DNA of 12,387 nt, taken from the NCBI GenBank assembly GCA_016840125.1, contig JAEOSY010000181.1, forward strand, positions 1 to 12,387, in the 5' to 3' direction. The notes beneath the pieces are model-generated. The model was not told the DNA's origin. It saw only the letters and a program-made list of their open reading frames with translations, and did no database searches. Source of the stretch: Candidatus Helarchaeota archaeon (GTDB lineage: Archaea; Asgardarchaeota; Lokiarchaeia; Helarchaeales; HEL-GB-A). Positions 1-12,387 of the stretch are shown one piece after another. The stretch's first letter is position 1, and each line of letters starts with the position of its first letter. The translations under genes and the position numbers were made by a program.

Positions 1-8
1 CCCGAAAT

Positions 9-65
9 ATTACTTTAAAGTAATAAATTACGTAATATATTATGTAATAAATGAAGTAATACTAA
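9..65. repeat. four imperfect 12-bp tandem repeats containing GTAAT, with palindromes
   Basis: The pentamer GTAAT occurs at 20-24, 32-36, 44-48 and 56-60, exactly every 12 bp, inside four units of rough form ANGTAATAAATN. The first unit overlaps a perfect 16-bp palindrome (9-24) and the second a perfect 10-bp palindrome (27-36). Such phased arrays can be operators or iterons. The window begins here, so the full extent and any neighbouring gene are unseen. Confidence 0.6.
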
Positions 66-83
66 TAAATTCAATCGCTGGTA

Positions 84-98
84 CGCAAGAATCTTGCG
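84..98. repeat. 15-bp inverted repeat
   Basis: The arms CGCAAGA and TCTTGCG flank a single central base, giving a near-perfect palindrome. A T-run begins about a dozen bases to the right on the plus strand, so it could be a terminator-like hairpin for a gene left of the window or a protein-binding site. Its function is not established. Confidence 0.4.
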
Positions 99-240
99 AT
101 CCCCATCCAATTTTTTCCCCCTTTGAATTACACGTAGCAGTTGAGGAAAATATTCTTAAAGTAAAGATGTATCTACCATAAGTGAAAGGTCGGATGTGAA
201 GGATGCCAGGCAGGTTCGATTACTTTTGAATAAATTATTA

Positions 241-262
241 TCCCCTCCTCCCCTCCCCCTTT
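241..262. repeat. pure C/T tract, G-rich on the minus strand
   Basis: More than 20 consecutive pyrimidines lie on the plus strand. The minus strand reads G5-A-G4-A-G2-A-G4, which could form a quadruplex or triplex-type structure. It stands out from the surrounding AT-rich sequence. No associated gene is visible within 200 bp. Confidence 0.5.
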
Positions 263-452
263 TCACGAACGGATCTGCCCATCACACTTTGCATCCTGTT
301 AAATGAATGAGATGAAATCAACCACGTATCAATAGGTGTTATTCAGTTAGAGGAGAAAAGAATTTGGAAACCACATCTTATTCAAAATAAATCCTATAAT
401 AGGGGAATTATCTCGTTTAAAAAATTCAATTTCGTTTTTTAACAAAAAAAGT

Positions 453-464
453 CGGGTAAACCCG
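453..464. repeat. small palindrome upstream of the acetyltransferase gene
   Basis: CGGGT and ACCCG are separated by two bases, 45 bp before the acetyltransferase start. Seven A residues at 444-450 make it read as a short hairpin followed by T7 on the minus strand. It may be an operator for the downstream gene or a weak minus-strand terminator. Confidence 0.35.
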
Positions 465-508
465 AAAATAAAAAAGGTTCAAATAAAATAACTGTATGGG
501 AGAAAATT

Positions 509-982
509 ATGAAAGTACGTTTAGCTACATTGGAAGATTTATCACATCTTGTTTCCTTATGGTGGGAAATGCAGAGTTCTCTATTCGAATATGATCTCTT
601 CTTTTATAATACTAAATTAGAACAAATTTCAAAGGCGATCTCAGCAGAGTATTTTAAATTTTGTCTTAGAAAAAAAAATGATACTTTAATTGTGATGGAA
701 GACGAACAAAAGCCTATCGGAATGCTTCACAGTGAAATTTCAAGTCGCCCCCCTATTTTCAAAGAAGAAAGAATAGCTACAATAGTTGAAGCTGTCGTAA
801 CAGAAAGTTTTAGGGGGCAAGGAATATTCCATCTCATGTTTAAGTTCTTAGAGCAAGAATTAATTCGTAGGAATATACGACTGTGTATTTTATCAGTTGA
901 TAAAGAGAACCTGAACGCGCTTCGCGCTTATGAAAAATGTGGGTTTCAAGAACGCCAAAAGAAAATGATTGTTAGATTTTAA
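509..982 (+). CDS. GNAT-family N-acetyltransferase
   Basis: This 157-residue protein is a stand-alone GNAT acetyltransferase that would move an acetyl group from acetyl-CoA to an amine; the substrate cannot be read from sequence. It opens with the typical first strand (MKVRLATLEDL). Motif A with the acetyl-CoA pyrophosphate loop RGQGIF lies at about residues 102-107, with Phe where many members have Gly or Ala. The motif B region NLNALRAYEKCGF is at 134-146. Length is normal for a single domain. The ATG follows GGGAG at 498-502, a good ribosome site. It stands alone and converges with the minus-strand genes ending at 1111. Confidence 0.85.
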   Translation: MKVRLATLEDLSHLVSLWWEMQSSLFEYDLFFYNTKLEQISKAISAEYFKFCLRKKNDTLIVMEDEQKPIGMLHSEISSRPPIFKEERIATIVEAVVTESFRGQGIFHLMFKFLEQELIRRNIRLCILSVDKENLNALRAYEKCGFQERQKKMIVRF

Positions 983-1110
983 ATTCTAGAAGTTAAAACA
1001 CCCCTGAGATGTCCCACTTCAATTTCCCCGCGTTAAACCGAGCTGAGATCGTCGTAACCTCCTAAAAAGCTGTGATGGTAATTAGAGTTAAAGATGGAGT
1101 GTATAATCAG

Positions 1111-1458
1111 CTAAATACCATATTTTTCTTTTAAACATACTATTAAATCAATAGCCTCTTGAAGTTCGATTGTACTCGTCTCATCTGCATTTTTGATTCT
1201 TGCTTTAAAAAAGAGTTCTGCGGGGGGTTCATATCCTAGTGGTTCAATACGGTAATTACCAAGGGAGATTGTTATAGGCGTAGTCAGATTTGTAGGAGGG
1301 ATTACCCCTAATCTTTCAAAAAACTCTTTGTATTCTTTGCTTGTAATGGGTTTCCCTGCAATATTATTATAGATTTTTGCTAGAACAACAGTGGGATTGG
1401 TGGTTTCTTCAAGATTGAAAATGTAATAATTAGTTGGAACTTTACGGTCTTTTTGCAT
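1111..1458 (-). CDS. small hypothetical protein, second gene of a minus-strand pair
   Basis: I do not recognise this protein of 115 residues. It has no predicted signal peptide, membrane segment or cysteine motif. It seems to be a compact alpha/beta protein: alternating hydrophobic strands (NYYIFNL, TPITISLGNYRI, ELFFKARI) and a C-terminal helix (ELQEAIDLIVCLKEKYGI). I favour the ATG at 1458, which has GAGTGA just upstream; a GTG three codons earlier overlaps that ribosome site. It starts 12 bp after the winged-helix gene stop, so the two are surely co-transcribed and may work together. Confidence 0.7.
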   Translation of the reverse strand: MQKDRKVPTNYYIFNLEETTNPTVVLAKIYNNIAGKPITSKEYKEFFERLGVIPPTNLTTPITISLGNYRIEPLGYEPPAELFFKARIKNADETSTIELQEAIDLIVCLKEKYGI

Positions 1459-1470
1459 TATTATCACTCT

Positions 1471-1785
1471 TTACTCAATAAAATAATACTCTTGCCCTTT
1501 TACTTGCTTCACTTGAATTTTACCACTTTTAACCATCTGTCTTAATGTACTTGAAAAGGTATATTGATTTAAAACATTTAGAGCAAAAACCCCAACATTA
1601 TCCCATGTCCAATACGAACCTTTTTCATTAGGCCTATGGGGAATTGACTTTTTAAGTCCTTCATAGATTTCGTTGCTAGTGAAGGCTTGTGTTTTGTGTG
1701 CTTCTAGAAATTTGGCTATTTTAATTTCTTCCGCTTCATAATTTGTATATTTTTTAACTTCGTCTATTGGCATTGGTATTTTCAT
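1471..1785 (-). CDS. small winged-helix DNA-binding-like protein
   Basis: This 104-residue protein has the layout of a winged helix. A helix near residues 22-31 is followed by FTSNEIYEGLKKSI (helix 2 region), a central segment, and then a likely recognition helix and wing, SSTLRQMVKSGKIQVKQVKG, ending YYFIE. It is probably a small transcription regulator or the DNA-binding partner of the next gene. The ATG at 1785 directly follows AAGGTGG; two GTG codons upstream overlap that site and are less likely starts. It forms a two-gene unit with the 115-residue gene. The exact family is not assigned; the fold is inferred from pattern. Confidence 0.7.
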   Translation of the reverse strand: MKIPMPIDEVKKYTNYEAEEIKIAKFLEAHKTQAFTSNEIYEGLKKSIPHRPNEKGSYWTWDNVGVFALNVLNQYTFSSTLRQMVKSGKIQVKQVKGQEYYFIE

Positions 1786-1988
1786 CACCACCTTAATTTT
1801 TTATTTGTTCTGTTAATCTAAAATGCCAGCTTTTGAAAATCTATTTAATTAAACAAATTTTTTCTGCTGATCTTCTTAAGGAATAGTGTAACTACTGCTA
1901 ACCTAAACCTTTGAAATTCCCATGTAATTAATTAGATTTTATACGAGAACTTTTTTAAAAGATTCTTCTATTTTAGTAGTTTAAAGGT

Positions 1989-2141
1989 TTATTTTTCTCC
2001 AATTGAATCTTTGAGACATTTAGTATGAGCTAAACCTTCAAATGAACCAAACTCTTTTGTATATATTTTTACATTGTCAAACTGTTCATTTCCTTTACCA
2101 CAAATATCACATATACGTTCTTCAAGAGGTTTTTCACTCAA
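1989..2141 (-). CDS. 50-residue zinc-finger-like protein, TTG start
   Basis: This small gene begins with TTG six bases after a strong AGGGGTGA ribosome site and ends with TAA. The protein has a CDIC pair (Cys-x2-Cys) at about residues 12-15 and a later HTKC (His-x2-Cys), a four-ligand set that could hold one zinc. The rest is charged and polar (ends KDSIGEK). Similar tiny zinc-ribbon proteins are common in archaea, often of unknown role in nucleic-acid or protein binding. It lies upstream of the winged-helix pair in the same direction, about 200 bp away, and could be the first gene of that unit. Confidence 0.65.
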   Translation of the reverse strand: MSEKPLEERICDICGKGNEQFDNVKIYTKEFGSFEGLAHTKCLKDSIGEK

Positions 2142-2673
2142 TTTTATTCACCCCTTTTAATATTGTCCTGATCACTAATGGGCTCCATTCAATAAAAATG
2201 TATCTCTGTTACGAAACTTCGTATCATTCTAATTAAAAACCAAAATTTTAATATTTTTATAAAATTTTACCACTGATAAATAGGTTAATTATAATTTAAG
2301 ATTAAGAATTAAAATTATTAATATCTAATCATTACTTAATCGCCACTAACGCATCAAACACTGCGTCAATCCCCCGCTCCGCATAGATGATCCCGTAGAT
2401 CCCCTCAATCAATGTTCCTTTGCTCTTTAGGACCTTTTCATAGTTCTTCAATAGCTTTTTTCATAAAAGTTGGGAATTTATTTAGGTCCAGTGGCTTAAG
2501 GCTGTGTTAAATATACTTGTAACGGTGAGCTTGGTTAAGGCGTTCGGCTAACTTAAAGATGAGTGGTGGACTGCAGGTGTAGTTATGGAATAAACAAAAT
2601 GGGACACGCTCCAAAACAAATAATGAGACGGGATTTCTTCTCACACCTAAAATCCTACAAGATAAATGTACCA
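2142..2673. other. largely non-coding region with one gene remnant
   Basis: This stretch is AT-rich from 2142 to about 2335 with no convincing gene. A GC-richer block at 2332-2451 carries a remnant listed separately. 2460-2673 shows only short frames that overlap the end of the next gene on the other frame; I do not consider them real. No tRNA or repeat array was seen. Confidence 0.45.
2332..2451 (-). pseudogene. C-terminal remnant of an unidentified protein
   Basis: A frame of 39 codons reads as plausible protein (for example GTLIEGIYGIIYAERGIDAV) and ends with a clean TAA. Its base composition is more GC-rich than the flanks, as in real genes here. Upstream the frame closes at a TGA at 2461-2463, and there is no ribosome site at the only available TTG. 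This looks like the tail of a deleted or frame-broken gene. I cannot name the parent family. A tiny intact protein is less likely. Confidence 0.4.
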
Positions 2674-3639
2674 TCAACCTATCGCGTGAGATGTGTGGTA
2701 TTCCCACACCCCTAATCTATAACGGCAAAAAACTTTGAGAATCCGAATAAACGCGAAGAGATTTTGATAGATATCAATTAAATCTTGAACAGTTAAAATC
2801 ATATTTTCGATTACATTCTCAGGTTTGGCTTTAATTTTACGGGCGATCCGCATTCGCTTATGCTTTTCAAGGTTCTCATTATAACAGACAACGATAAGAT
2901 CTAGAAAGGGAGTGTCTTTGTGCAAAGGTTTGACATAATAAGAACTGTGGGAGATCATAGAGTTCTTCACGAAGCGTATTGTGTTAAGCGCGTTATGTAA
3001 CTCAGGGTAATTTTTCTTCAAACCCGGAAACTCAAAAATACTGTACAATTTGTATTGGATTGTCTTCCTTGGATTTAACTTGGATATCCACTTGCTCAAG
3101 ACGATGCAGCTCCTCTCAAAGAGAGGAAAGAAGTCCACAAAGGTCCGCTTGAAAACTCTGAGGAATTGTATAAAATCTTCTTTTTTGGCTATTTCATAGA
3201 TGGTATTTTCTTTTGGATCAGCAGGCAGGTCCACCGTCATAAGGATTGATACTAATGTATTCAGGAGGAGAATAAGATGGCTATTTCCGGTCTGGGGAAC
3301 TGCATATTCCTTTAGGGAGATCACCTTAATAAAATCTATATCTAGCTCATCGAATTCCTTGAGATCAACTTCCGCCCTTAAAAAATTTAAGAAACCAAAC
3401 CAGACTTCATTTTTCGTCTTAAGCCTTTCGTTGAGTTTGTCAAACTTTATGGCCTTCTTAATATATTTCTCTAACTCAATCCCCACTACCCTGGTAAAAT
3501 CATCAATCCAAAGCTTGATATATGGAATAATATTTTCAATATACCTCTCGGATTCTTGCAAAGAATTGTTTGTTTCGTTCCAAAAATACTCAATTATTTT
3601 TGATATCTCTTCCTTTGGCAGGTCTCCATGCAATACCAT
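2674..3639 (-). CDS. helical protein with a HEPN-like motif, possible RNase or abortive-infection type
   Basis: This 321-residue, mostly alpha-helical, lysine-rich protein has no membrane segment. Residues 221-233 contain RFVKNSMISHSS, which matches the style of the HEPN signature (Arg/Lys-Asn, then four residues, then His), here with Lys225-Asn226 and His231. HEPN proteins are often metal-independent RNases in toxin or phage-defence systems, or helper domains for nucleotidyltransferases; no such partner is seen next to it. The first ATG is 3639, with no ribosome site. The frame stays open upstream to a TAA near 3705, without a standard start, behind a GGGGTGGTG run, so the true start may be an unusual codon or an indel may be present. 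Function is inference. Confidence 0.65.
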   Translation of the reverse strand: MVLHGDLPKEEISKIIEYFWNETNNSLQESERYIENIIPYIKLWIDDFTRVVGIELEKYIKKAIKFDKLNERLKTKNEVWFGFLNFLRAEVDLKEFDELDIDFIKVISLKEYAVPQTGNSHLILLLNTLVSILMTVDLPADPKENTIYEIAKKEDFIQFLRVFKRTFVDFFPLFERSCIVLSKWISKLNPRKTIQYKLYSIFEFPGLKKNYPELHNALNTIRFVKNSMISHSSYYVKPLHKDTPFLDLIVVCYNENLEKHKRMRIARKIKAKPENVIENMILTVQDLIDIYQNLFAFIRILKVFCRYRLGVWEYHTSHAIG

Positions 3640-4148
3640 TTCAATTAATTGATCAGTCTTCTCTTTCGTTCCCTGTTTAGTGGGAGTATCATCCTGAATT
3701 TACACCACCCCAAATTAATATCCTAAATGAGGGATCTGTTAAAAAGGTAGACGGGTTAAATTATATTTTTAAAACATAAAAGCTGGATTCATTGTAACTA
3801 TACTATTTCCTCCCGCCACCGAAACCCGCACCCGAAGCACCGAGAGAGGACAAAAGTTTTGTAGTTTCGTAAATGATTAATTATTCCATCCACCCCCTAA
3901 AGGAAGTGGCTTTTACCTAAGGTATAATTTTGGTAAAGTCTACTAAACGTGTTTTATCAGACACGCTCAATAGAGCTCTTTTTATTCGTATCATTTACTA
4001 AAAAGCTATCTTTTAAGCGCGTAGAAAGAAATGATTTGCTCTCTCCTCGAATAGGGGAGCTTGAAGCACTAGTTTCAATCGCAACGCCTTTAAGTAGGAT
4101 AAGCCTACTAGAAAACTAATCAAAAAAATTGGTTTTAGGTGTAAAAAT
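3640..4148. other. divergent intergenic region between the HEPN-like gene and pyrB
   Basis: An A/T element (TATATTTTTAAAA, about 3764-3776) could be a TATA box for either side. 3803-3880 holds a minus-strand frame with a glycine-rich end (GASGAGFGGGRK then stop) and no start, probably the tail of a lost gene. From about 3912 to 4118 there is a run of stable hairpins before pyrB, listed separately. No tRNA was recognised. Confidence 0.5.
3912..4118 (+). promoter_or_regulatory. possible structured leader RNA before pyrB
   Basis: Several inverted repeats line up on the plus strand: TTTACC/GGTAAA (3912-3917, 3932-3937); CGTGTTT/AGACACG with a 4-nt loop (3948-3965); AGAGCTCT followed by T-rich sequence (about 3972-3984); CTCCTC/GGGGAG with a 5-nt loop (4043-4059); and AGTAGG/CCTACT with a 5-nt loop (4093-4109), enclosed by TAGTTT/AAACTA (4070-4075, 4113-4118). 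The density is unusual for intergenic DNA and points to a structured 5' leader or small RNA. It matches no riboswitch I know. A role in pyrimidine-dependent control is speculation. Confidence 0.3.
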
Positions 4149-5075
4149 TTGGATTTTACTAGGAGACATATTATTTCTATAAAACAATTTACGAGAGAAG
4201 AGCTTGACTATATCCTTAATATTGCAAATAAAATAGAAAAATATTACAAGACTGGAACCGATTTATTAAAGGGTAAAATACTTGCGACATTATTTTTTGA
4301 GCCCTCCACAAGAACTCGGCTGAGTTTTACATCCGCTATGTATAAATTAGGGGGGCAAGTAATTTCCCTGTCAAATCCTGAGATGTCTTCCATCTCAAAA
4401 GGGGAAAATTTGACTGATACTATTTCAGTAGTTCAAGGCTATTCCGATGTGATTGTTCTTCGTCACAAATTGGAGGGATCCGCAAAATTAATGTCTGAAA
4501 TTAGTCAAGTTCCTATTATAAATGGCGGAAGTGGAACCAAAGAACATCCTACTCAAGCGATGCTAGATCTTCTTACTATAAAAAATGAGATGCGCGGAAA
4601 GCTTGATGGCATTCGAGTAGCACTTTGTGGCGATTTAAAATATGGACGAACTGTAAAGTCACTCGCCTATGCCCTATCCCATTATGATGTAGAGATTAAC
4701 TTTGTATCTCCACCTTCCCTACGAATGAGAAACGAGGTTATTTCAGATCTTAAAGATTTAAATGTATCGTTGAAAGAATATGAGGACATATCAGATGTCA
4801 TCGATGACATGGATGTAATATATGCTACTAGAATCCAGAAAGAGCGCTTTCCCGATCCCGCAGATTACGCTAAAGTAGCGGGATCCTATCGAATTACTGT
4901 TAATATGCTAGATAATGTAAAGGACAATCTGATAATTATGCACCCACTACCAAGGGTCGAAGAAATTGATTATAGAATTGATACAACAAAACATGCCCGG
5001 TATTTCAAACAATCCTATTATGGAGTAATCCTTAGAATGGCACTACTGGCTCTTGTATTAGGAAAATCTGTTTAG
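4149..5075 (+). CDS. pyrB: aspartate carbamoyltransferase catalytic subunit
   Basis: PyrB condenses carbamoyl phosphate with L-aspartate to N-carbamoyl-L-aspartate, the committed step of pyrimidine synthesis, in the cytoplasm. The 308-residue length is normal. The carbamoyl-phosphate loop STRTR is at 53-57, the SKGE loop with the catalytic lysine at 83-86, HPTQ at 133-136, and the late HPLPR motif at 265-269. The start is TTG, preceded by TTAGGTG eight bases upstream; the N-terminus MDFTRRHIISI fits the family and no ATG would do so. pyrI follows after 28 bp, so both form the classic archaeal pyrBI operon whose products assemble into a regulated holoenzyme. All key active-site motifs are intact. 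Confidence 0.95.
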   Translation: MDFTRRHIISIKQFTREELDYILNIANKIEKYYKTGTDLLKGKILATLFFEPSTRTRLSFTSAMYKLGGQVISLSNPEMSSISKGENLTDTISVVQGYSDVIVLRHKLEGSAKLMSEISQVPIINGGSGTKEHPTQAMLDLLTIKNEMRGKLDGIRVALCGDLKYGRTVKSLAYALSHYDVEINFVSPPSLRMRNEVISDLKDLNVSLKEYEDISDVIDDMDVIYATRIQKERFPDPADYAKVAGSYRITVNMLDNVKDNLIIMHPLPRVEEIDYRIDTTKHARYFKQSYYGVILRMALLALVLGKSV

Positions 5076-5103
5076 ATTGTTATTAATATTTGGAGAATTA
5101 AAG

Positions 5104-5601
5104 ATGGGCGATTTAACAAAAGTAGATTATGAAAAATCCTTACGAGTTAGAAAAATCAAAAATGGAACTGTTATCGATCATATCTCTCCCGGCAATGCTT
5201 TAAACGTTTTAAAAATTGTGGGGATTACAGGTAAGGAAGGAATGATTATTTCCATTGCCATAAACGTGTCTTCTGGAAAAAGTGACCTAAAAGATGTTGT
5301 TAAAATCGAAAATAAGGAATTGGCCCCGGAAGAAATCAATCGCATTGCTCTTATTTCACCAAATGCTTCTATCAACATAATCCGCAATTATGAGGTGGTT
5401 CGGAAATTCACAGTGGTTCTTGAAGAAAAACTTGAAGGTGTGGTTAAATGTATGAATCCAAATTGTATTACGAATGGTAAAGAACATGTTAACTCCCTAT
5501 TTAAAATTGAAAAATCAGATCCTGTCAATCTTCGATGCCTCTACTGTGACCGTATATTAGAACATCCGGATATTGTGCGACAGTTCCAAAATTCCTCTTA
5601 A
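5104..5601 (+). CDS. pyrI: aspartate carbamoyltransferase regulatory subunit
   Basis: PyrI has no catalytic activity; in this family it binds nucleotide effectors (CTP/ATP) through its N-terminal domain and docks to PyrB through a C-terminal zinc domain. The 165-residue protein shows the N-terminal allosteric region (VRKIKNGTVIDHISPGNA, about 15-32) and the zinc site Cys116-x4-Cys121 ... Cys145-x2-Cys148, the same spacing pattern as known PyrI. The chosen ATG has GGAG nine bases upstream; an upstream TTG-extended frame lacks a ribosome site and is not homologous. It ends 40 bp from the convergent porB stop, with T/A-rich tracts between. Confidence 0.95.
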   Translation: MGDLTKVDYEKSLRVRKIKNGTVIDHISPGNALNVLKIVGITGKEGMIISIAINVSSGKSDLKDVVKIENKELAPEEINRIALISPNASINIIRNYEVVRKFTVVLEEKLEGVVKCMNPNCITNGKEHVNSLFKIEKSDPVNLRCLYCDRILEHPDIVRQFQNSS

Positions 5602-5609
5602 TGGTTTAC

Positions 5610-5628
5610 TTTTTTTAATAAAAAAAAA
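5610..5628. terminator. bidirectional T/A-tract terminator between pyrI and porB
   Basis: T7 followed by AATA9-type sequence sits between the two convergent stops. Read from pyrI it gives a U-run; read from porB on the minus strand it gives a run of nine U. Archaeal RNA polymerase commonly stops at U-rich tracts without a hairpin, so one element can serve both genes. Confidence 0.5.
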
Positions 5629-5641
5629 TTTGAAAGGGGAA

Positions 5642-6637
5642 TTAATCCGAAAGCAATGGATTCATTATCCCAAAAGAGCCCGTACGCACGAGCGCGGATT
5701 TGAGAAATTGAAACCCGATATCATAGGTCGAGCCGTCGCCTCCGATCGCTACCACGTATGGTACTTCACCCTTATAATGACCTTTTGTTTGCATGATCCG
5801 ATAGGCAGTCGCGATCGCGTCCCCAGTCGTCGCAGCTGTTTCGAATAAGTGGTGCGCCCAAGGCGTATTGTAGCTCGGCACATCATCTTTACTCAAAGAT
5901 ACTTCACTGCAGCTCGTATTATTTGTAAAAATAACATTCATTCCTGCCACCATTTGAATACCAATTGCCATTTGCTTAAGGGCTATTCCTGCACCGCAAC
6001 CTTGGCAGAGACCATGTCCAGGTGAGATTATTTCTTGGTTTGGTAATTCGGACAACTTAAGTTTATAAGTTTCAAATTGCCCCTCTGGATCTCCGAATTG
6101 ATTGACTAAACCTACTACATTGTTTGCCCGGGCATGTACCATTTTAACTAGGTCGTTAATTAAATCTTCCCGAGGTGGCTTTACAAGATGGCGATATCGC
6201 CCCATTAGCGATAAATATTCTGTCAATAATTCTTTGGTTTTATCGAACTTAATTTTTCTATTGATAGAATAAGTTGGCTGTCCATCTTTAACTCGAATTG
6301 AATACAAAGGCCAAAATCCTGAATCCACTGCCAATTTGTTTATCTTCGTCGTTATATTAACAGGATGTCGCCATCCTCGATCACATGAAGTGAGTGCTTG
6401 TATAAAAGCTGCACCCGGAGTCTTTAAAGCTTCAACCATCTTTCCGATGAAATCCATTGGATAAGCGGTACTCACGGTAGCCAGAAATGCACTCTTCATA
6501 CCAAGAAATGCAAATCCATCAATGATATCTTGTTTAACCCCAATCTTACCCGGAACTGCTTTTCCGCTCGGACCGGTGGTAGTAGAAGCTCCGAAAGGCG
6601 TCGACCCACTTTCTTGAATGCCCGTATTTGTGAGAAC
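5642..6637 (-). CDS. porB: circularly permuted 2-oxoacid:ferredoxin oxidoreductase beta subunit (main frame)
   Basis: PorB carries thiamine diphosphate and the proximal 4Fe-4S cluster of the oxidoreductase. Here the family order is reversed. The frame begins with the C-terminal half (NTGIQESGSTPFGASTTTG, then AFIQALTSCDRGWR and MGRYRHLVKP) and continues without a stop into the N-terminal half (ISPGHGLCQGCGAGIALKQM, NNTSCSEV, then the GGDGSTYDIGFQ cofactor motif near 5740). It ends in an unrelated frame (SFGIMNPLLSD). All four likely cluster cysteines are kept. The first in-frame ATG is 6499, inside the domain; no ribosome site precedes it. The 6640 TAG closes the frame upstream. It may be a decaying copy, a functional permuted enzyme needing frame repair, or an assembly artefact. 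porA lies upstream, separated by three nuclease-like genes. Confidence 0.8.
   Translation of the reverse strand, partial: VLTNTGIQESGSTPFGASTTTGPSGKAVPGKIGVKQDIIDGFAFLGMKSAFLATVSTAYPMDFIGKMVEALKTPGAAFIQALTSCDRGWRHPVNITTKINKLAVDSGFWPLYSIRVKDGQPTYSINRKIKFDKTKELLTEYLSLMGRYRHLVKPPREDLINDLVKMVHARANNVVGLVNQFGDPEGQFETYKLKLSELPNQEIISPGHGLCQGCGAGIALKQMAIGIQMVAGMNVIFTNNTSCSEVSLSKDDVPSYNTPWAHHLFETAATTGDAIATAYRIMQTKGHYKGEVPYVVAIGGDGSTYDIGFQFLKSALVRTGSFGIMNPLLSD
5655..5669 (-). repeat. 3' copy of the duplicated porB Asp-Asn-Glu codons
   Basis: The minus strand reads GATAATGAATCCATT here and GATAATGAAGCCTTT at 6664-6678, 13 of 15 identical. In this 3' copy the frame is offset by about 13 missing bases, so the motif is not translated in the main frame. 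The pair flanks the permuted gene. Confidence 0.6.
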
Positions 6638-6660
6638 CTAGAACGCATCTAAGCTCTTTT
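6629..6660 (-). other. 32-nt hairpin-forming insertion inside porB
   Basis: These 32 bases separate ATG (6661-6663) from AATACGGGC (from 6628). Deleting them joins YDNEAFM to NTGIQESG in the family frame. The exact ends can slide by up to two bases because A residues flank both sides. The insert contains AGAGCTTAG-7 nt-CTAGGTTCT (6657-6633), nine pairs with two G-U wobbles, and carries a TAG in each arm. It lacks the central four-pair helix of a canonical archaeal bulge-helix-bulge intron as far as I can fold it by eye. Confidence 0.7.
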
Positions 6661-6765
6661 CATAAAGGCTTCATTATCGTAGTTGAAGTAGAGCATGTAG
6701 TTTCGGGTTTCGCGTTTTAATAACTCCTTAACATCGACAACCCTCGACTTATAATCTTGTTTCAT
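6649..6765 (-). CDS. porB: short leading frame of the permuted porB, cut off by an insertion
   Basis: An ATG at 6765 with an AAGGTGAT ribosome site opens a 38-codon frame. Its second half is porB: LLKRETRNYMLYFNYDNEAF corresponds to the helix and Asp-Asn-Glu strand that normally follow GDG...GFQ in the cofactor motif. The family continues with Met-Asn-Thr-Gly, but here it reads MKRA and stops at TAG because of a 32-nt insertion. The first 11 residues or so (MKQDYKSRVVD) are not PorB-like and probably come from the flanking DNA. The good ribosome site suggests that translation of the permuted gene really begins here. Confidence 0.65.
   Translation of the reverse strand: MKQDYKSRVVDVKELLKRETRNYMLYFNYDNEAFMKRA
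6664..6678 (-). repeat. 5' copy of the duplicated porB Asp-Asn-Glu codons
   Basis: This is the in-frame partner of the repeat at 5655-5669; it encodes Asp-Asn-Glu-Ala-Phe in the short leading frame. The two copies in the same orientation, about 1009 bp apart, mark both ends of the permuted porB. Confidence 0.65.
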
Positions 6766-6787
6766 AAAAAATCACCTTAATATTTAA

Positions 6788-6802
6788 TTTTATATATATT
6801 TT
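6788..6802 (-). promoter_or_regulatory. possible TATA box for the permuted porB
   Basis: The minus strand reads AAAATATATATAAAA about 25-35 bases upstream of the 6765 ATG. If used, transcription would start close to the ribosome site, giving a very short leader. The base-rich context in A and T makes chance matches common, so this is tentative. Confidence 0.3.
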
Positions 6803-6803
6803 C

Positions 6804-6826
6804 AATCTAATTCATTCAATTAGATT
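6804..6826. repeat. inverted repeat between the last nuclease-like gene and porB
   Basis: AATCTAATT and AATTAGATT form perfect 9-bp arms around a 5-nt loop. A second perfect hairpin, CCATTTC/GAAATGG with a 6-nt loop, follows at 6843-6862. Together they fill the 146-bp gap and could be processing or termination elements after the nuclease genes, or an operator for porB. Confidence 0.45.
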
Positions 6827-6842
6827 ATGAGTATTAATTTCA

Positions 6843-6862
6843 CCATTTCTATTTTGAAATGG
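6843..6862. repeat. second inverted repeat in the gap before porB
   Basis: CCATTTC and GAAATGG are perfect complements separated by six bases; AATT sequences flank both sides and could extend the stem after a short internal loop. It lies 50 bp downstream of the 242-residue gene stop on the minus strand, where a 3' stabilising or terminating hairpin would be expected. Confidence 0.4.
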
Positions 6863-6911
6863 CTAATTAAATATTACTAACTAAAAACATACAAAAAAGG
6901 AAAAATTATTT

Positions 6912-7640
6912 TTATATTCCAAACAGTCGCTTTCTAATTTCTTGACTTAATCTCGACCTTAGTGCATATTCTTGTTTTTCAGATGGCGTTAAAACATCTA
7001 CAATTTTAGGAAATGATAGTCTTAATTTATAACCTACTGTTTTACCTTTTACTGTCATTTTTGAAGGTTTCAAACTGTTTAAATATCCTTCATAATCGCT
7101 TAAACTATTATTATTTACGATTATGTAAGTATAAGGTATTCTTTCGTTTCCAAATAATTCACGTAACTTCTTCATATCATCTTCAATCTCAGATAACGAT
7201 TTCCCCTCTTTAATTATTCCCCACTTTTTAAAATTGCTTACTTTCTCTCCCACTAAAATTAAGGTCAGTAGTCCTTTTTTCAGAAATTCAAGCTGTAATA
7301 ACGTTAAGTCCATTTCTTTCATCATCAAATAATGTAATTTAGCTCCTATTGCATGTTTCCTCCCTCCCGTAGAACTTTTGGGGGCTGTAGCACGTAATCT
7401 TGCGAATTTCAGCTCGATAGTTCCTAAAACACCATTCCTTCTATATAAGATATCCCCTGTTGGGGGTACAAACGGAAATCCCTTATAGTAGTAGGGATCG
7501 GGACACGGTGTATGGCGACAATCCCACAGTTCAATACCCTGAACCTTCTCAAAAATCGTATTTATCAGTTCACAACGAATTTCATCCTCATTTACAAAAT
7601 ACGGGTAGTTAAAATTGCTAGAAATCTTTTTAGTGAGCAT
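6912..7640 (-). CDS. PD-(D/E)XK nuclease-like protein, third tandem paralog
   Basis: The 242-residue protein has a layout typical of the PD-(D/E)XK nuclease fold: an N-terminal helix with Glu24 (NEDEIRCELINT), then PPTGDIL with Asp63, then IELK with Glu76 and Lys78 on the next strand. These would bind metal and cut DNA. A conserved CRHTPCPDPYYYKGF block precedes the core and the C-terminus ends in SRLSQEIRKRLFGI, also shared by its paralog. I cannot name a family. It starts at ATG 12 bp after the 233-residue gene, with AAGGAT as ribosome site, so it is in the same operon. It may act in DNA mobility, repair or defence; the active-site call is from pattern only. Confidence 0.7.
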   Translation of the reverse strand: MLTKKISSNFNYPYFVNEDEIRCELINTIFEKVQGIELWDCRHTPCPDPYYYKGFPFVPPTGDILYRRNGVLGTIELKFARLRATAPKSSTGGRKHAIGAKLHYLMMKEMDLTLLQLEFLKKGLLTLILVGEKVSNFKKWGIIKEGKSLSEIEDDMKKLRELFGNERIPYTYIIVNNNSLSDYEGYLNSLKPSKMTVKGKTVGYKLRLSFPKIVDVLTPSEKQEYALRSRLSQEIRKRLFGI

Positions 7641-7652
7641 AGAGATGAATCC

Positions 7653-8354
7653 TTATATCCCAAACAAACGCTTTATGATTTCTATACACAATCTCGATCT
7701 CACTGCGAAACCAACTTCTTCAACTGGGGTTAATTCACTTACTATTTTTTCTAACCGCAACGGAAATTTATAGGTGAAGACCTCCCCCTTCTTTTTTATA
7801 GCCTGTGGTTTTATGCTATTAATATATGATTCATATCGGTGGTAGTTCTCCTTTGTTATAATAACAAAAGTATACGGGATTTTATCTTGCCCGAATAGAT
7901 CACGTAATTTTGCGATATCTTCCTCAATTTCTGATAGGGGTTTACGTCCCTCTGAAATTTCCCATTGACTCACATCCTGTACCATCTCCCCTATAACAAT
8001 CAAGGTCAGTAATCCCCTTTCTAGAAACTCTTTCTGCCGAACTAACAATTCAGCACTCCCTAAAATTCTGTAATAAAGAGTTCCCGTTCTCTGGTCTTTT
8101 AGAGCCCGCATGGTGGGGTACTTCAACTCATACGTGTGAAGTTTCTCATTCTCCTTCACTAAAATATCCCCTGTCGGGGGTACAAATGGGAATCCCTTAT
8201 AATAGTAGGGATCAGGACACGGTGTATGGCGACAATTCCACATTTGGACAGTTTTTACTTTTTCCAAAATAGTATTAATTAGCTCGAGTCGAATTTCATC
8301 CTCGTTTACAAAGTATGATTGCTTATATTCATACGAAATCTTACTCTCTATCAT
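7653..8354 (-). CDS. PD-(D/E)XK nuclease-like protein, second tandem paralog
   Basis: This 233-residue protein is a close paralog of the next gene. The shared features are the start YFVNEDEIRLELINT (Glu24), the CRHTPCPDPYYYKGF block (41-55), PPTGDIL with Asp63, YELK with Glu76-Lys78, the RGLLTLIVIGE strand, and the RSRLCIEIIKRLFGI tail. DNA identity is very high over about 75 bp around the CRHTPCPDP block, so the duplication is fairly recent. The ATG lies 21 bp after the 436-residue gene. All putative catalytic residues are kept in both copies, which argues that each is maintained for function rather than decaying. Confidence 0.7.
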   Translation of the reverse strand: MIESKISYEYKQSYFVNEDEIRLELINTILEKVKTVQMWNCRHTPCPDPYYYKGFPFVPPTGDILVKENEKLHTYELKYPTMRALKDQRTGTLYYRILGSAELLVRQKEFLERGLLTLIVIGEMVQDVSQWEISEGRKPLSEIEEDIAKLRDLFGQDKIPYTFVIITKENYHRYESYINSIKPQAIKKKGEVFTYKFPLRLEKIVSELTPVEEVGFAVRSRLCIEIIKRLFGI

Positions 8355-8375
8355 GTAACATGCACAACCTATAAC

Positions 8376-9686
8376 TTATTCTAGCTTGAATAGTCTTTTT
8401 GTGATTTCTAAGCAAATTTCTGACCTTTTCGCCCGATAACGATTCTCTTCTTCTGTATAATCCCGCCACAAGGTCGGAAAACGGGTCTGCTTCCTCCTCT
8501 CAATAACATTTCCCCATTCGTCTCTTTTTTCTCCAACCTTTAAATTATCGAAATAAAACTCATAGTCTTCCCAATTACTACTCTCAATTAATAAATAGGC
8601 GTAGGTAAGTTCATCCCTTCCCAAAGCCTCTCGAATGATTTGTATATCTTGAACGGCTCTTTCTCTTGTTACTGCAACTGATGAAACTCCAAGCCCAACA
8701 ACATCCTCCACAAACTCTGCGAGGATCACTAACTTCATTATTCCATTTTTGATTAACTCCAACTGGTTTAACTTAATTGGTACTGAGCGTAAAACTCTAT
8801 AACACAACCCTCCAACCTTCGAGTCTTTTTGAGGGTTGAGAGTTGTAAACTTCAGCTCTATGCTCTTGAACTTACCCTTTTCAAAGTAATGGATATCCCC
8901 AGTTTGAGGGTATAAAGGAAACTCTCCATCCATGATAGGTTCAATACACTTATCCTTCCTAGAATCCATGATATCTATCCTATCTACATTATCATAAAAG
9001 ATGTTAATCAATTCTCCCCGAAATTCTTCCTCCAGTGCAAAATAGGGGTATTGTATCGTATATGGAAAGGGATTTTTTATCTTAAAACGAGTTGCATTAC
9101 AATTTGGACAATGTACTTCCCCTCGACGAAACTCTTTTGCTTTTGTAAGGTCATCTATTTCAGTAGTCCATCCACACCCTTCACACTTTACATTCGCCCT
9201 TATTATGGCTAGTGTTTGTTCAGTTTTTTCGGTTTTAGGCGTTTCAAAAATCCCCTTTAATTTAATTTTCTCAGTTAAATATGGAATTATAAATGAGTTC
9301 CCAGAACCCTTTTTAAACCCCCCTTTAGTAGAAATATCGTTATTTTTAACCAGATCAATGGAATCATTCCCTATACTCGCGTTCGGAGATAACTGAGTTC
9401 CTCTATAAGCTAAATCACCTATATTTTTCAATTTATCAGATTTATCAACCTGAAGGTCTTCAATTTGCCGTCTATTTCGAACTTGCTCTCCCTTCCATCG
9501 AGAGTATTGAATAGGATCGAATGAATCTTTCTTTAGTCTATCGGTCAAGCACCAGCTTGTCCGAGTATCTTTGAGAATCCGATCCTTAGCATGTTTAACC
9601 ACAAAGAATAAGTTGTTGTTTAAAAAAAGAAGATTAGATATTAAAAGATATTTCAGCTGCTTTTCTTCACCTTTAAAAACCCTCAA
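8376..9686 (-). CDS. PD-(D/E)XK nuclease-like protein with zinc ribbon and long N-terminal extension
   Basis: The last 220 residues match the two smaller paralogs: Glu225 (FRGELINIF), PQTGDIH with Asp264, IELK with Glu277 and Lys279, and a C-terminal RSEICLEITKRLFKLE. The Cys-His block of the paralogs is replaced by DSRKDKCIEP. Before the core is a zinc ribbon: Cys168-x2-Cys171 and Cys193-x2-Cys196. The first 150 residues or so are polar, charged and unlike any domain I know. The only start that covers the frame is TTG at 9686, overlapping the end of porA by 14 bp; AAAGGTGAA follows it, so a later start is possible and the true protein may be shorter. Likely DNA-acting, with the ribbon for recognition. 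Confidence 0.6.
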   Translation of the reverse strand: MRVFKGEEKQLKYLLISNLLFLNNNLFFVVKHAKDRILKDTRTSWCLTDRLKKDSFDPIQYSRWKGEQVRNRRQIEDLQVDKSDKLKNIGDLAYRGTQLSPNASIGNDSIDLVKNNDISTKGGFKKGSGNSFIIPYLTEKIKLKGIFETPKTEKTEQTLAIIRANVKCEGCGWTTEIDDLTKAKEFRRGEVHCPNCNATRFKIKNPFPYTIQYPYFALEEEFRGELINIFYDNVDRIDIMDSRKDKCIEPIMDGEFPLYPQTGDIHYFEKGKFKSIELKFTTLNPQKDSKVGGLCYRVLRSVPIKLNQLELIKNGIMKLVILAEFVEDVVGLGVSSVAVTRERAVQDIQIIREALGRDELTYAYLLIESSNWEDYEFYFDNLKVGEKRDEWGNVIERRKQTRFPTLWRDYTEEENRYRAKRSEICLEITKRLFKLE

Positions 9687-10890
9687 TCTTTCCTTTTGTT
9701 TCTCGTACTGCTAGATAAGTATAAAGGTCACCTTTCATATCGTTTATTTTCGCAATCTTGTTTTTCACGGCATCTAATTCGTCGTTTGTAACATCGCGAC
9801 CTCCTAAACCAAGAACAAAACTATGGAACAAGGTATTTAATGGATATAAAGCGGGTGCAATGCTGGATGCCACCTGAGGAAGCGGTGCACCTATTGCATC
9901 ATTCTTCTCTAAAATTATGAGTTTCTCAAGATTACTATCCTCAACAATTTTTCTAATTTTCTCTGTAGGAAAAGGTCTGTAAGTCCGAATTTTTATTAAG
10001 GCAACATCTGGATTTTTTCGAATCCATTGTTTGATTGTCCCACACATCGATCCCATTGTTATAATTCCAATCTTAGGTTTCTCAATATTTGTGGTTTCAA
10101 TTCGTTCATAATTCCGTCCTGTTAATTTACCAAATTCCTTGAAGATTTTATCCATTTGCTCCGGTACTTCTCGTTTCGCCACGTCCACCGCTCTGCGTTG
10201 CTCCATAAAGTAAGCTGGCGTTACAATCCCACCCCATGTGCCGGGTTTAGACGTTGATATTGCATGCCGTTTAATACGGGGCGTAAATTTCTGGACCATT
10301 TCATCAGGTATCGCTTTAAACTTCTGCGCACTATGCGAAATAATGAACCCATCATGACAAAATATCGTTGGGAATAATGTTTCCTCGGCAATGCGACAGC
10401 TCATAATTGCTGAATCATAAGTTTCTTGGACACTCTCGCTGAACAGTTTGTTCCAGCCATGGTCTGCTAGAGTCGCCTCCCACGAGTTCCATATAGAAAG
10501 GTTCGGTGCATTCCACGCCCGATTTGATAACAGCATGTAAACCGGCGCTCTCCACCCAACAGTCATTGGAAGGCCTTCTTGCATTAACAAGTATCCTTGG
10601 GAAGCTGTCGCGGTAAATCCGCGCGCCCCAGCCGTTACTGCGGCGGTAATGTAACTTATGGCTGCAAGTTCGCTCTCAACATTCACAAACGCAGCCTTTA
10701 AGCGCCCATGATTAACTGTATCACTTAGACCTTCAACAGACTGGGTTTGCGGTGTAATAGGAAACGCACAAATTACATCAGGATCTGTCTGCGTGACCGC
10801 TCCTGCTACTGCATAATTCCCCGTCATTGTTAAAATCTTTTCTTCTTTTATTTTTTCAAAGAATGGGGCCATTGGTACTACACTCATCAT
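9673..10890 (-). CDS. porA: 2-oxoacid:ferredoxin oxidoreductase alpha subunit (PorA-like)
   Basis: The alpha subunit binds the 2-oxoacid and pairs with PorB to build the thiamine-diphosphate site. The 405-residue length is typical. Residues 43-53 read FPITPQTQSVE, the family's substrate and cofactor-facing loop; FVNVESELAAI is at 68-78; the transketolase C-terminal domain follows at about 270-390 (KPKIGIITMGSMCG, RPFPTEKIRKI). The stretch NRAWNAPNLSIWNSWEATLADHGW replaces the usual alanine-serine-aspartate-rich segment of pyruvate enzymes, so the substrate may not be pyruvate. ATG at 10890 has GAGGTGA five bases before. It follows porGD by 10 bp, so both are one operon. Confidence 0.9.
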   Translation of the reverse strand: MMSVVPMAPFFEKIKEEKILTMTGNYAVAGAVTQTDPDVICAFPITPQTQSVEGLSDTVNHGRLKAAFVNVESELAAISYITAAVTAGARGFTATASQGYLLMQEGLPMTVGWRAPVYMLLSNRAWNAPNLSIWNSWEATLADHGWNKLFSESVQETYDSAIMSCRIAEETLFPTIFCHDGFIISHSAQKFKAIPDEMVQKFTPRIKRHAISTSKPGTWGGIVTPAYFMEQRRAVDVAKREVPEQMDKIFKEFGKLTGRNYERIETTNIEKPKIGIITMGSMCGTIKQWIRKNPDVALIKIRTYRPFPTEKIRKIVEDSNLEKLIILEKNDAIGAPLPQVASSIAPALYPLNTLFHSFVLGLGGRDVTNDELDAVKNKIAKINDMKGDLYTYLAVRETKGKIEGF

Positions 10891-10900
10891 TTCTCACCTC

Positions 10901-11851
10901 TTAATGTTCTACTGCCTCTCCAATTTTCTTTTCAATAGCGCTAAGAGCTTTCACACCGCCCTTACCTGGACACACTTCTATACAACTCCTACAACCCTTA
11001 CAATGAAAATTATCTACGCCACGAATTTTATAGGTCCCGTCCTGTTGCTTTTCTCGGATAATGCAGAAATCTGGGCAGGCCCGATAATAGCATGCCTGAC
11101 AGTTGATGCATCGTTCTTCATCCCAATGTATATGGTAGATCCCCCAGCTTCCCGTCTTTACTTTCTTAGAGGCTCCTGGCTCATACCAAACAGCCCCAAC
11201 AGTCATATCCTTCCATCCCGGAAGGTCGGGGTTAACATGACTCCATTTTTCTTTTACACCCTTCGATGGGTCATATGGGACTTTAGTTTCTTGAACTTCG
11301 GTTTCCTTATAAGCTCTTTCGACAACTTTATGGTTAATATCGGCTATTTTTTTCGTAAATGTGCGAGACAGTCCTCCTTTTAACTCATCCAAAGTGAACG
11401 CGTTTGAAATTTTCACAATCCCACCTAGAATCGCAGTATTTGTGATAGGACGTCCAATAATATCTAAAGCAATAGTTGTTGCATCAACTTTTGCAACGTT
11501 TAGGTCATCCCGTTTAATTAGCTTTTTAAGGTTTTCAAAACTCATGGTTGTATTAACAATTATTGTGCCCCCTGGTGGCATTCCTGCAGTCACATCTACT
11601 TCACTCAGGAGTGAAGGGTCAAGAACACCTACATACCGCGGGGTATATACTGCCGTTTGAGCTTGTACCAACTCGGGATTCTTGCTCATAGTTGCATATG
11701 CTTGGGTAGGAGAACCCATTCTTTCCGCACCGAAAAGTGGCTGCGCCCTGCCCATTCCATCAAAACTTTCCACTGCAACTTGGGCGGCGGTGACCCCACC
11801 TTGCCCACCACGTGCGTGGAATCTCATTTGTATAACATCATCATCAGACAT
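10901..11851 (-). CDS. porGD: 2-oxoacid:ferredoxin oxidoreductase gamma-delta fusion subunit
   Basis: One 316-residue chain joins the gamma subunit (1 to about 185, opening MRFHARGGQGGVTAAQ and PLFGAERMGSPTQAY) with the two-cluster delta subunit (about 200-316). Delta carries electrons from the active site to ferredoxin. Cluster site one is Cys248, 251, 254 and 259 followed by Pro; the last gap is four residues instead of the usual three, and Cys263 follows nearby. Site two is the normal Cys284, 287, 290, 294. Fused gamma-delta subunits are known in several archaea and bacteria. The ATG at 11851 sits 29 bp after the ferredoxin stop with AAAGGAT upstream, so all are likely one transcript. Confidence 0.9.
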   Translation of the reverse strand: MSDDDVIQMRFHARGGQGGVTAAQVAVESFDGMGRAQPLFGAERMGSPTQAYATMSKNPELVQAQTAVYTPRYVGVLDPSLLSEVDVTAGMPPGGTIIVNTTMSFENLKKLIKRDDLNVAKVDATTIALDIIGRPITNTAILGGIVKISNAFTLDELKGGLSRTFTKKIADINHKVVERAYKETEVQETKVPYDPSKGVKEKWSHVNPDLPGWKDMTVGAVWYEPGASKKVKTGSWGIYHIHWDEERCINCQACYYRACPDFCIIREKQQDGTYKIRGVDNFHCKGCRSCIEVCPGKGGVKALSAIEKKIGEAVEH

Positions 11852-11880
11852 AATTACATCAATCCTTTTTTTTCAAAAAA

Positions 11881-12090
11881 TCATTCCAATTCTACTATAA
11901 TTGCCTCCTCTGGGCAATTTTCTTGACAGGCGAGGCATTCAATACATTCATCCATATTGACTACCTTTGCTTTGCCGGTTTCTTCGTCCAATTCATATAC
12001 ATTGACTGGACATGTATCCACGCAAATCCCGTCGCCATTACATTTGTCGAGATCTACGGTTATGTTTTTCACCAAAGTAATAACCTTCAT
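11881..12090 (-). CDS. ferredoxin with one Asp-ligated cluster site
   Basis: A 69-residue ferredoxin with two iron-sulfur sites, probably the electron acceptor or a partner of the oxidoreductase next to it. Site one reads Cys17-x2-Asp20-x2-Cys23-x3-Cys27-Pro: the second cysteine is Asp, as in Pyrococcus furiosus ferredoxin, where the cluster is easily converted between 4Fe and 3Fe forms. Site two is a full Cys49, 52, 55, 59 set. There is no signal peptide, so it is cytoplasmic. The ATG has no ribosome site, consistent with a short or leaderless transcript from the A/T element at 12124-12137. It is the first gene of the por operon. Confidence 0.9.
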   Translation of the reverse strand: MKVITLVKNITVDLDKCNGDGICVDTCPVNVYELDEETGKAKVVNMDECIECLACQENCPEEAIIVELE

Positions 12091-12123
12091 GAATAAGTAT
12101 TTTAAAATTAAATTTACGTTTAG

Positions 12124-12137
12124 TTTAAAAAATATAT
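12124..12137. promoter_or_regulatory. shared TATA-like element between ferredoxin and HAD genes
   Basis: TTTAAAAAATATAT lies in the 90-bp divergent gap. It is nearly symmetric and could serve both directions: read leftward it would place a start about 15 nt before the ferredoxin ATG, read rightward about 25 nt before the HAD TTG. These spacings fit archaeal TATA-to-start distances. Confidence 0.4.
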
Positions 12138-12180
12138 CTTTTAATAACGATCTAGTTAATTAAAACTTGAAGGGACATTT

Positions 12181-12387
12181 TTGACTCGAGGTCTAATCTT
12201 GGACATGGATGGCACAATTTTGGACTCTCACGACTTTCATTTAGAAGCTTGGAAATTATTATTAAAGAAATATGACATTGAAAAAACGGAATCTGAAATT
12301 TTGGCGCTTTTCGGGAAAACTACAGAATCTATTGCAATGAGTCTTTTTCCACCCGAATTTGATCCTGTGACGATTGGAGAAGAAAAA
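12181..12387 (+). CDS. HAD-family phosphatase, N-terminal part (runs off the window)
   Basis: Sixty-nine codons are seen. The sequence opens LILDMDGTILDS, the haloacid dehalogenase motif I with the nucleophile Asp8 and the general acid Asp10, then a helical cap start (FHLEAWKLLLKKYDI and FGKTTESIAMSLF). This arrangement, with cap inserted after motif I, fits the phosphoglycolate phosphatase or beta-phosphoglucomutase branch; the substrate cannot be told from this end. The start is TTG with AGGGA five bases upstream; ATG at Met9 would remove the catalytic Asp8. The gene is incomplete at the right edge. It diverges from the por operon. Confidence 0.85.
   Translation, partial: MTRGLILDMDGTILDSHDFHLEAWKLLLKKYDIEKTESEILALFGKTTESIAMSLFPPEFDPVTIGEEK

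Follow-up and report, generated by a model that had tools for sequence, protein, structure and literature searches.

A class-wide circularly permuted PorB in Asgard archaea and the tiny putative EndA-spliced introns that interrupt its gene

What does a porB gene encode when its two halves stand in reverse order and its reading frame closes at a stop codon within the cofactor-binding segment? The gene that raises this question lies on contig JAEOSY010000181.1 of a Candidatus Helarchaeota archaeon (GCA_016840125.1), in the 12,387-nucleotide (nt) stretch analyzed here (forward-strand positions 1-12,387), which we call the window. Judged by the relatives of its proteins, which come from records titled Helarchaeota, Lokiarchaeota and Promethearchaeota, the window is an Asgard archaeal contig. 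The answer that we put forward with good confidence is that the gene encodes a class-wide, circularly permuted beta subunit of 2-oxoacid:ferredoxin oxidoreductase, repeatedly interrupted by tiny introns that the tRNA splicing endonuclease EndA would remove. The substrate is probably pyruvate, which would make the enzyme a pyruvate:ferredoxin oxidoreductase (PFOR).

Order of the halves and spread of the permutation

Are the two halves really those of PorB, and are they really exchanged? In a PDB search with the 285-amino-acid (aa) open reading frame (ORF) at 5642-6499, residues 5-108 align with residues 191-286 of oxalate oxidoreductase beta and residues 149-272 with its residues 8-127 (E 4.7e-29 for the whole match), and the beta chain of the Methanosarcina PFOR is matched in the same swapped order. 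The NCBIfam PorB profile PRK11865 (1.4e-45) likewise matches in two stretches, the best of which joins query residues 5-124 to positions 178-292 of 300. Both libraries thus bear out the original prediction that, on the minus strand, the C-terminal half comes before the N-terminal half. Because the N-half-to-C-half order of an ordinary PorB is reversed in the window protein, we class it as a circularly permuted homologue and not as an ordinary member of the family.

The thiamine diphosphate (ThDP) motif of this family is GDG ... N. The alignment places both new termini of permuted PorB after the GDG helix and before the (Y)DNE strand, that is, inside this motif and at one point of the family sequence, just as had been proposed. 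In the numbering of P0001, an uninterrupted 363-aa relative, GDG at 332-334 and N36 are invariant, yet they stand at opposite ends of the chain. Four cysteines (C117, C243, C246 and C275) are invariant in 79 sequences and align with those of normal-order PorB; we take them to be the ligands of the [4Fe-4S] cluster. Permuted PorB therefore resembles PFOR/PorB beta and oxalate oxidoreductase beta (9bt4_C, 5c4i_C) in its two halves, its four cysteines, its GDG and NTG motifs and its operon with porA and porG/porD, but differs from them in the reversed order, an N-terminal extension (about 20 aa), a C-terminal tail (about 10 aa) and a new linker and, unlike ordinary PorB, scores under the curated NCBIfam cut-offs.

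The permutation is not private to the window. A protein search with the window ORF returned 285 relatives at E 1e-3, and all 120 of the matches listed have the permuted order of the query over 85-100% of its length; most of these proteins are near 362 aa long. Across the species collection, a scan returned 66 loci, one of them from Eubacterium and 65 Asgard-like, the latter including L002, which is labelled Bathyarchaeota and groups with Asgard sequences in the tree. Among whole genomes, permuted PorB (E 1e-60 or better) is present in 66 of the 83 of one class, that of G001, and the best genome matches span the C-to-N junction in every case among the matches listed; none was found in the 144 other genomes of the phylum (227 in total), with at most eight candidates per genome scored. 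Absence outside Asgard is only suggestive, resting on two family-specific peptide patterns, and viral contigs held no relative of P0001. In nine of the ten genomes reached through the loci, a normal-order porB with both halves matched exists beside the permuted gene; in the tenth, G009, the second porB is a 311-aa open frame matched in its C-half only. With the halves swapped back, a single branch (support 100) separates 25 permuted from 21 normal-order Asgard PorB sequences: permuted PorB is one clade. A true circular permutation, one of the explanations originally offered, is strongly supported by this clade, by its spread over the class and by the relatives that align in permuted order; that close relatives share the order had been a comparison to make, and its class-wide extent had been missed.

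Inserts in the active-site codons

Is the permuted gene a single reading frame? In the window it is not, contrary to the original prediction, which had the halves fused in one frame. The frame from the ATG at 6765 closes at a TAG after 38 codons, and the 285-aa ORF lies in a different frame. The break is an overlooked insert of 32 nt with stops (6658-6627, minus strand) within the cofactor-binding codons. Once it is removed, the product has 363 aa and is identical to P0001 at 338 of 363 positions (93%), without gaps. The earlier observation is thus partly confirmed and its interpretation partly supported. The parts of the gene, with a predicted bulge-helix-bulge (BHB) intron, are as follows.

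5642-6765, minus strand: porB, permuted beta subunit (ORF list with profile and structure matches).
6659-6765, minus strand: exon 1, whose last two bases begin the MNTG Asn codon and which holds the new N-terminal extension (about 20 aa) and the strand NYMLYFNYDNEAFM (ORF frames; alignment with P0001 and normal-order PorB).
6627-6658, minus strand: predicted BHB intron, 32 nt, stem 6657-6648/6642-6633 (10 bp), loop 6647-6643.
6664-6661 (UAUG) against 6632-6629 (CACA), minus strand: predicted central helix of that intron, 3 of 4 pairs.
5642-6626, minus strand: exon 2, the remainder of the old C-half, linker, old N-half, C-terminal tail and stop (ORF and spliced product).
About 6047-6094, minus strand: linker from the old C-terminal helix to the old N-terminus, about 15 new residues, FGDPEGQFETYKLKLS (alignment with normal-order Asgard PorB; hand-computed coordinates), close to where it had been put (6040-6145).
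5678-6046, minus strand: old N-terminal half with LPNQEIISPGHGLCQGCG, TSCSEVS and GGDGSTYDIGFQ (PDB and NCBIfam matches, alignment; hand-computed coordinates).

Do relatives carry inserts as well? The distance from NYDNEAFM to TTTGP, measured in 59 loci, is 69 nt in 55 of them, 99 nt in L038 and L059 and 100 nt in L057 and L064; the other seven of the 66 loci are L036 (cut), L052-L056 (which mismatch the pattern, yet form a single open frame) and L065 (no close relative). The inserts are thus 30 nt long in L038 and L059, where they bear an in-frame TGA, and 31 nt long in L057 and L064. By the predicted junctions, they interrupt codon 36 in the window, codon 39 in L057, L038 and L059, and codon 41 in L064 (P0001 numbering). 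In the tree, L038, L059 and L064 form one clade, with the window and L057 elsewhere. When 737 ORFs were compared with 67 sequences to look for further frame-changing inserts, L057 and L064 alone came up, and this is a weak control because it is blind to in-frame inserts such as those of L038 and L059; it missed the window too. In two close relatives, P0003 (285 aa) and P0005 (265 aa), the annotated start is an internal methionine, as it would be for the window gene, and both may carry the same intron.

Could EndA remove these inserts? The BHB test on which we rely forces the central helix, considers junctions that restore the frame and cuts each bulge between its second and third base; other folds were run with constraints that permit the helix without forcing it. 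In all five inserts, the standard cuts restore the frame exactly, a single frame-restoring junction fits a BHB, and the insert holds a hairpin. The predicted spliced products read NYDNEAFMNTGIQESG in four cases, and L059 fits the pattern; in L038 and L059, the predicted cut yields the invariant Ile and not Val or Leu (by eye). In the canonical motif, two 3-nt bulges flank a 4-bp helix that spans the boundaries; this central helix has 4/4 pairs in L057 and L064. Per 1000 shuffled inserts, 1 does as well in the window, 2 in L057, 4 in L038 and none in L059 or L064; the Fisher value over the five, 1.3e-9, is too small because L038 and L059 share ancestry. Among nearby BHB-compatible junctions, the predicted one ranks 16/754 in the window, 1/887 in L057, 57/905 in L038, 153/915 in L059 and 2/888 in L064, and by that measure the evidence is therefore strong in three and weak in two. 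An earlier score, which allowed no bulged stems and wrongly restricted the junctions of L038 and L064, found 3/2000 shuffles as good for the window; by that score, L057 (671/2000), L038 (1604/2000) and L064 (125/2000) do not stand out.

Comparison of L038 with L059 adds a second line of evidence. Their inserts have 18 of 30 bases in common, yet 9/9 stem pairs are kept, three of them via a double change. Random bases at the same substituted positions keep all pairs in 2853 of 100000 trials, and random positions do so in 92 of 100000. The coding parts are 94.9% identical over 235 codons, with proportions of synonymous and nonsynonymous differences (pS and pN) of 0.877 and 0.053, respectively; given this identity and the saturated synonymous sites, purifying selection has acted on the interrupted gene for a long time. 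Purifying selection with the insert present holds for L038, L059 and L064, and synonymous distances are saturated in most pairs.

In total, we posit the following course of events. One circular permutation of porB would have occurred in an ancestor of the Lokiarchaeia-like Asgard class, with tandem duplication followed by deletion as a likely ancient route; a short linker would have joined the old termini, and the loop of the ThDP motif that connects the GDG helix with the DNE/NTG strand would have become the site of the new ones. The permuted chain would fold as PorB with its four iron-sulfur cysteines retained and would function together with PorA and the PorGD fusion. An intron of 30-32 nt would interrupt the coding sequence of the new N-terminal active-site segment in the window and at least four relatives; the pre-mRNA would form a BHB, EndA would cut each bulge after its second base, and the exons would be ligated and then translated into full protein (363 aa in the window). 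We also speculate, at somewhat less than even odds, that gain and loss of spliced pre-mRNA introns continue in Asgard archaea to this day. Tiny EndA introns would land repeatedly in codons 36, 39 and 41, the most conserved of the active site, in a class-wide permuted PFOR subunit; the intron of the window would have been gained, or lost from its relative, after the two proteins, 96% identical, diverged, perhaps with the help of nuclease-like genes (by eye) inserted in the operon at two of the five loci.

A natural, class-wide permutation whose new ends lie inside the cofactor motif of a central metabolic enzyme is a rare natural experiment in protein evolution. If the introns are true, EndA-type introns exist in protein genes outside cbf5, at active-site codons, in the archaea nearest to eukaryotes, and gene callers truncate the proteins that bear them.

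Evidence to the contrary and rival explanations

Several observations weigh against the reading of a functional permuted PorB with spliced introns. The match to PRK11865, at 155.8 bits, is below the curated cut-off of 405, and in a predicted structure model the active-site stretch (33-40, 53-66) falls under 50 in pLDDT, the predicted local distance difference test. The central helix is relaxed, with 3/4 pairs, in the window, L038 and L059; a blind BHB scan would not single out the junction in L038 or L059, and would fall slightly short of doing so in the window. The unforced fold of the window is stable (z -3.03, 0/200 shuffles as low) and forms the hairpin and an exon-exon helix, but the central helix is missing, with the splice sites in an internal loop. 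A column-shuffle covariation test, weak with two rows, reaches the observed value in 67 of 500 trials. Finally, the nearest relative, P0006, which is identical to the spliced window product at 298 of its first 310 residues, is without the insert. As to the libraries, Pfam at 1e-3 found no domain in the 285-aa ORF, and a family missing from the fold lists does not count as excluded.

What else could the insert be? If the permutation is real and the 32 nt arose in this one genome by a mutation that disables the gene, or reflect faulty sequencing or assembly, the copy would be a pseudogene or an artefact, as the single contig and the insert-free P0006 (298/310) would allow. We consider this unlikely: inserts of 30-31 nt occur inside six codons (36-41) in four further genome records, L038, L059 and L064 are under purifying selection despite the insert, the stem is kept by compensation in L038 and L059, and the terminal branch of the window is short (0.0065).

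Alternatively, the insert might be kept in the mRNA and bypassed by ribosomes, or translated through a shift of frame. Bypassing occurs in phage T4 gene 60, and the hairpin inside each insert is in keeping with it; matching take-off and landing codons were inspected by eye only. This seems improbable. A single frameshift is unworkable in the window because the frames of exon 1 and exon 2 each meet a stop within the insert, and in every case a junction at the standard BHB cut positions restores the motif. Slightly less probable still is expression in two pieces, in which the DNE strand would reside on a separate 38-aa peptide that assembles, without splicing, with a 285-aa subunit begun at 6499. 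Each frame is open from its own start codon, and P0003 is annotated from the same Met; against this, NTGIQESG...KQD (about 42 codons, 6626-6500), though rich in invariant family residues, would be omitted, and the 285-aa frame has no earlier ATG, GTG or TTG after its stop. Finally, misassembly, a private recombination of tandem porB copies or an integrated porB circle, which had also been raised and to which partial 3'-end copies downstream of the gene in L003, L020, L036, L048 and L060 might point, are ruled out as private events because the permutation is conserved across the class in one clade, and the locus of G001 on a record titled chromosome, CP070831.1, argues against misassembly, so that we give this practically no chance.

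Splicing machinery and the por locus

Do these archaea have what EndA splicing would require? Two PF01974 (EndA-family) genes are present in 7/7 genomes of relatives, three of them intron-bearing, as expected of a two-subunit EndA. The crenarchaeal two-subunit EndA accepts relaxed motifs (PMC2738675), relaxed substrates of EndA are described in general (PMC12397907), and the crenarchaeal cbf5 introns are cut between the second and third bulge base (PMC2738675). The porB inserts resemble those introns (PMC2738675) in being tiny (16-44 bp in cbf5, 30-32 nt in porB), in a predicted BHB that is often relaxed, in the predicted cut position, in an active-site codon and in a probable two-subunit EndA; they differ in gene and phylum and in their three insertion points within six codons. 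Splicing of cbf5 was shown by complementary DNA (PMC2738675), whereas we infer that of porB from DNA.

As a control, cbf5 scores over its family cut-off in 80 of the 83 genomes and is split in one, G160. The insert (L120, contig 151, about 8026-7994, minus strand) is 32 nt long, lies inside the catalytic Asp codon of GTLDP, at the place known from crenarchaea, and fits a BHB with 4/4 pairs (2/1000 shuffles as good, rank 13/1013); the known intron class therefore seems to be present in Asgard genomes too, though the placement of G160 may be wrong. The ten nearest database relatives of this cbf5 (83-98%) are 239-262-aa ORFs without the N-terminal domain, one of whose names begins Candidatus Jorda.

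In permuted tRNA genes, RNA processing restores the normal order, whereas permuted PorB keeps the permuted order in the protein. The two are alike in permuted order and BHB motifs (PMC3978253). Putative introns in other archaeal protein genes have been predicted, their splicing unconfirmed (PMC2738675); these and the 12-bp inserts of an archaeal virus (PMC2738675) are, like ours, short inserts in coding genes, with splicing demonstrated in neither. As of 2020, one additional archaeal BHB intron was reported, in cbf5 mRNA only (PMC7714728), and the excerpt of a 2026 review of non-canonical splicing (PMC13149111) does not name cbf5. Among the matches listed from open-licence literature, no title or abstract concerned permuted PFOR or introns in Asgard coding genes.

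The porB of the window and of most relatives stands with porA, porG and porD, and the order porGD-porA-porB is conserved at most permuted loci. In the window, the neighbours of porB are as follows.

10901-11851, minus strand: porGD, fused gamma and ferredoxin-like delta subunits (Pfam and NCBIfam profile matches).
9673-10890, minus strand: porA, PFOR alpha (POR_N 2.4e-53; PorA_Arch 6.8e-93, under its curated cut-off).
6912-9686, minus strand: three paralogous ORFs (242, 233 and 436 aa) between porA and porB.

The three paralogous ORFs share TGDI...(x12)ELK and have, by eye, the look of a PD-(D/E)XK nuclease. They have no relative at any of the 66 loci, and a homologue search with the 233-aa ORF gave one match outside the window, P0122. 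In L064, a 798-aa ORF (6141-8537, plus strand) stands between porGD and porA; by eye it has a GIY-YIG-like stretch, outside which a PHROG homing endonuclease family matches at only E 0.073, and it ends in a C-terminal helix-turn-helix. Nuclease-like ORFs (by eye) thus occur in the por operon of the window and L064, their labels poorly supported by the libraries, and homing was not adopted as the source of the inserts; among the listed ORFs of L057 and L038, none is nuclease-like by eye. Scans of the window found no match to Rfam at gathering scores and no tRNA with ARAGORN.

Five loci have partial repeats of the permuted-porB 3' end downstream of the gene, namely L003 (2079-2231), L020 (6072-6266), L036 (3596-3946), L048 (12093-12212) and L060 (2888-3082); these repeats are perhaps traces of insertions or tandem duplication. 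PorB-like proteins of 495 aa (L117, 2133-3620, plus strand) and 493 aa (L118, 172-1653, minus strand) begin with a stretch that resembles, by eye, a 2Fe-2S ferredoxin domain. Beyond porB in the window, on the opposite strand, two ORFs resemble pyrB and pyrI (by eye). Finally, porG and porD form a single frame in permuted relatives and mostly two frames or separate matches in the normal-order Asgard operons.
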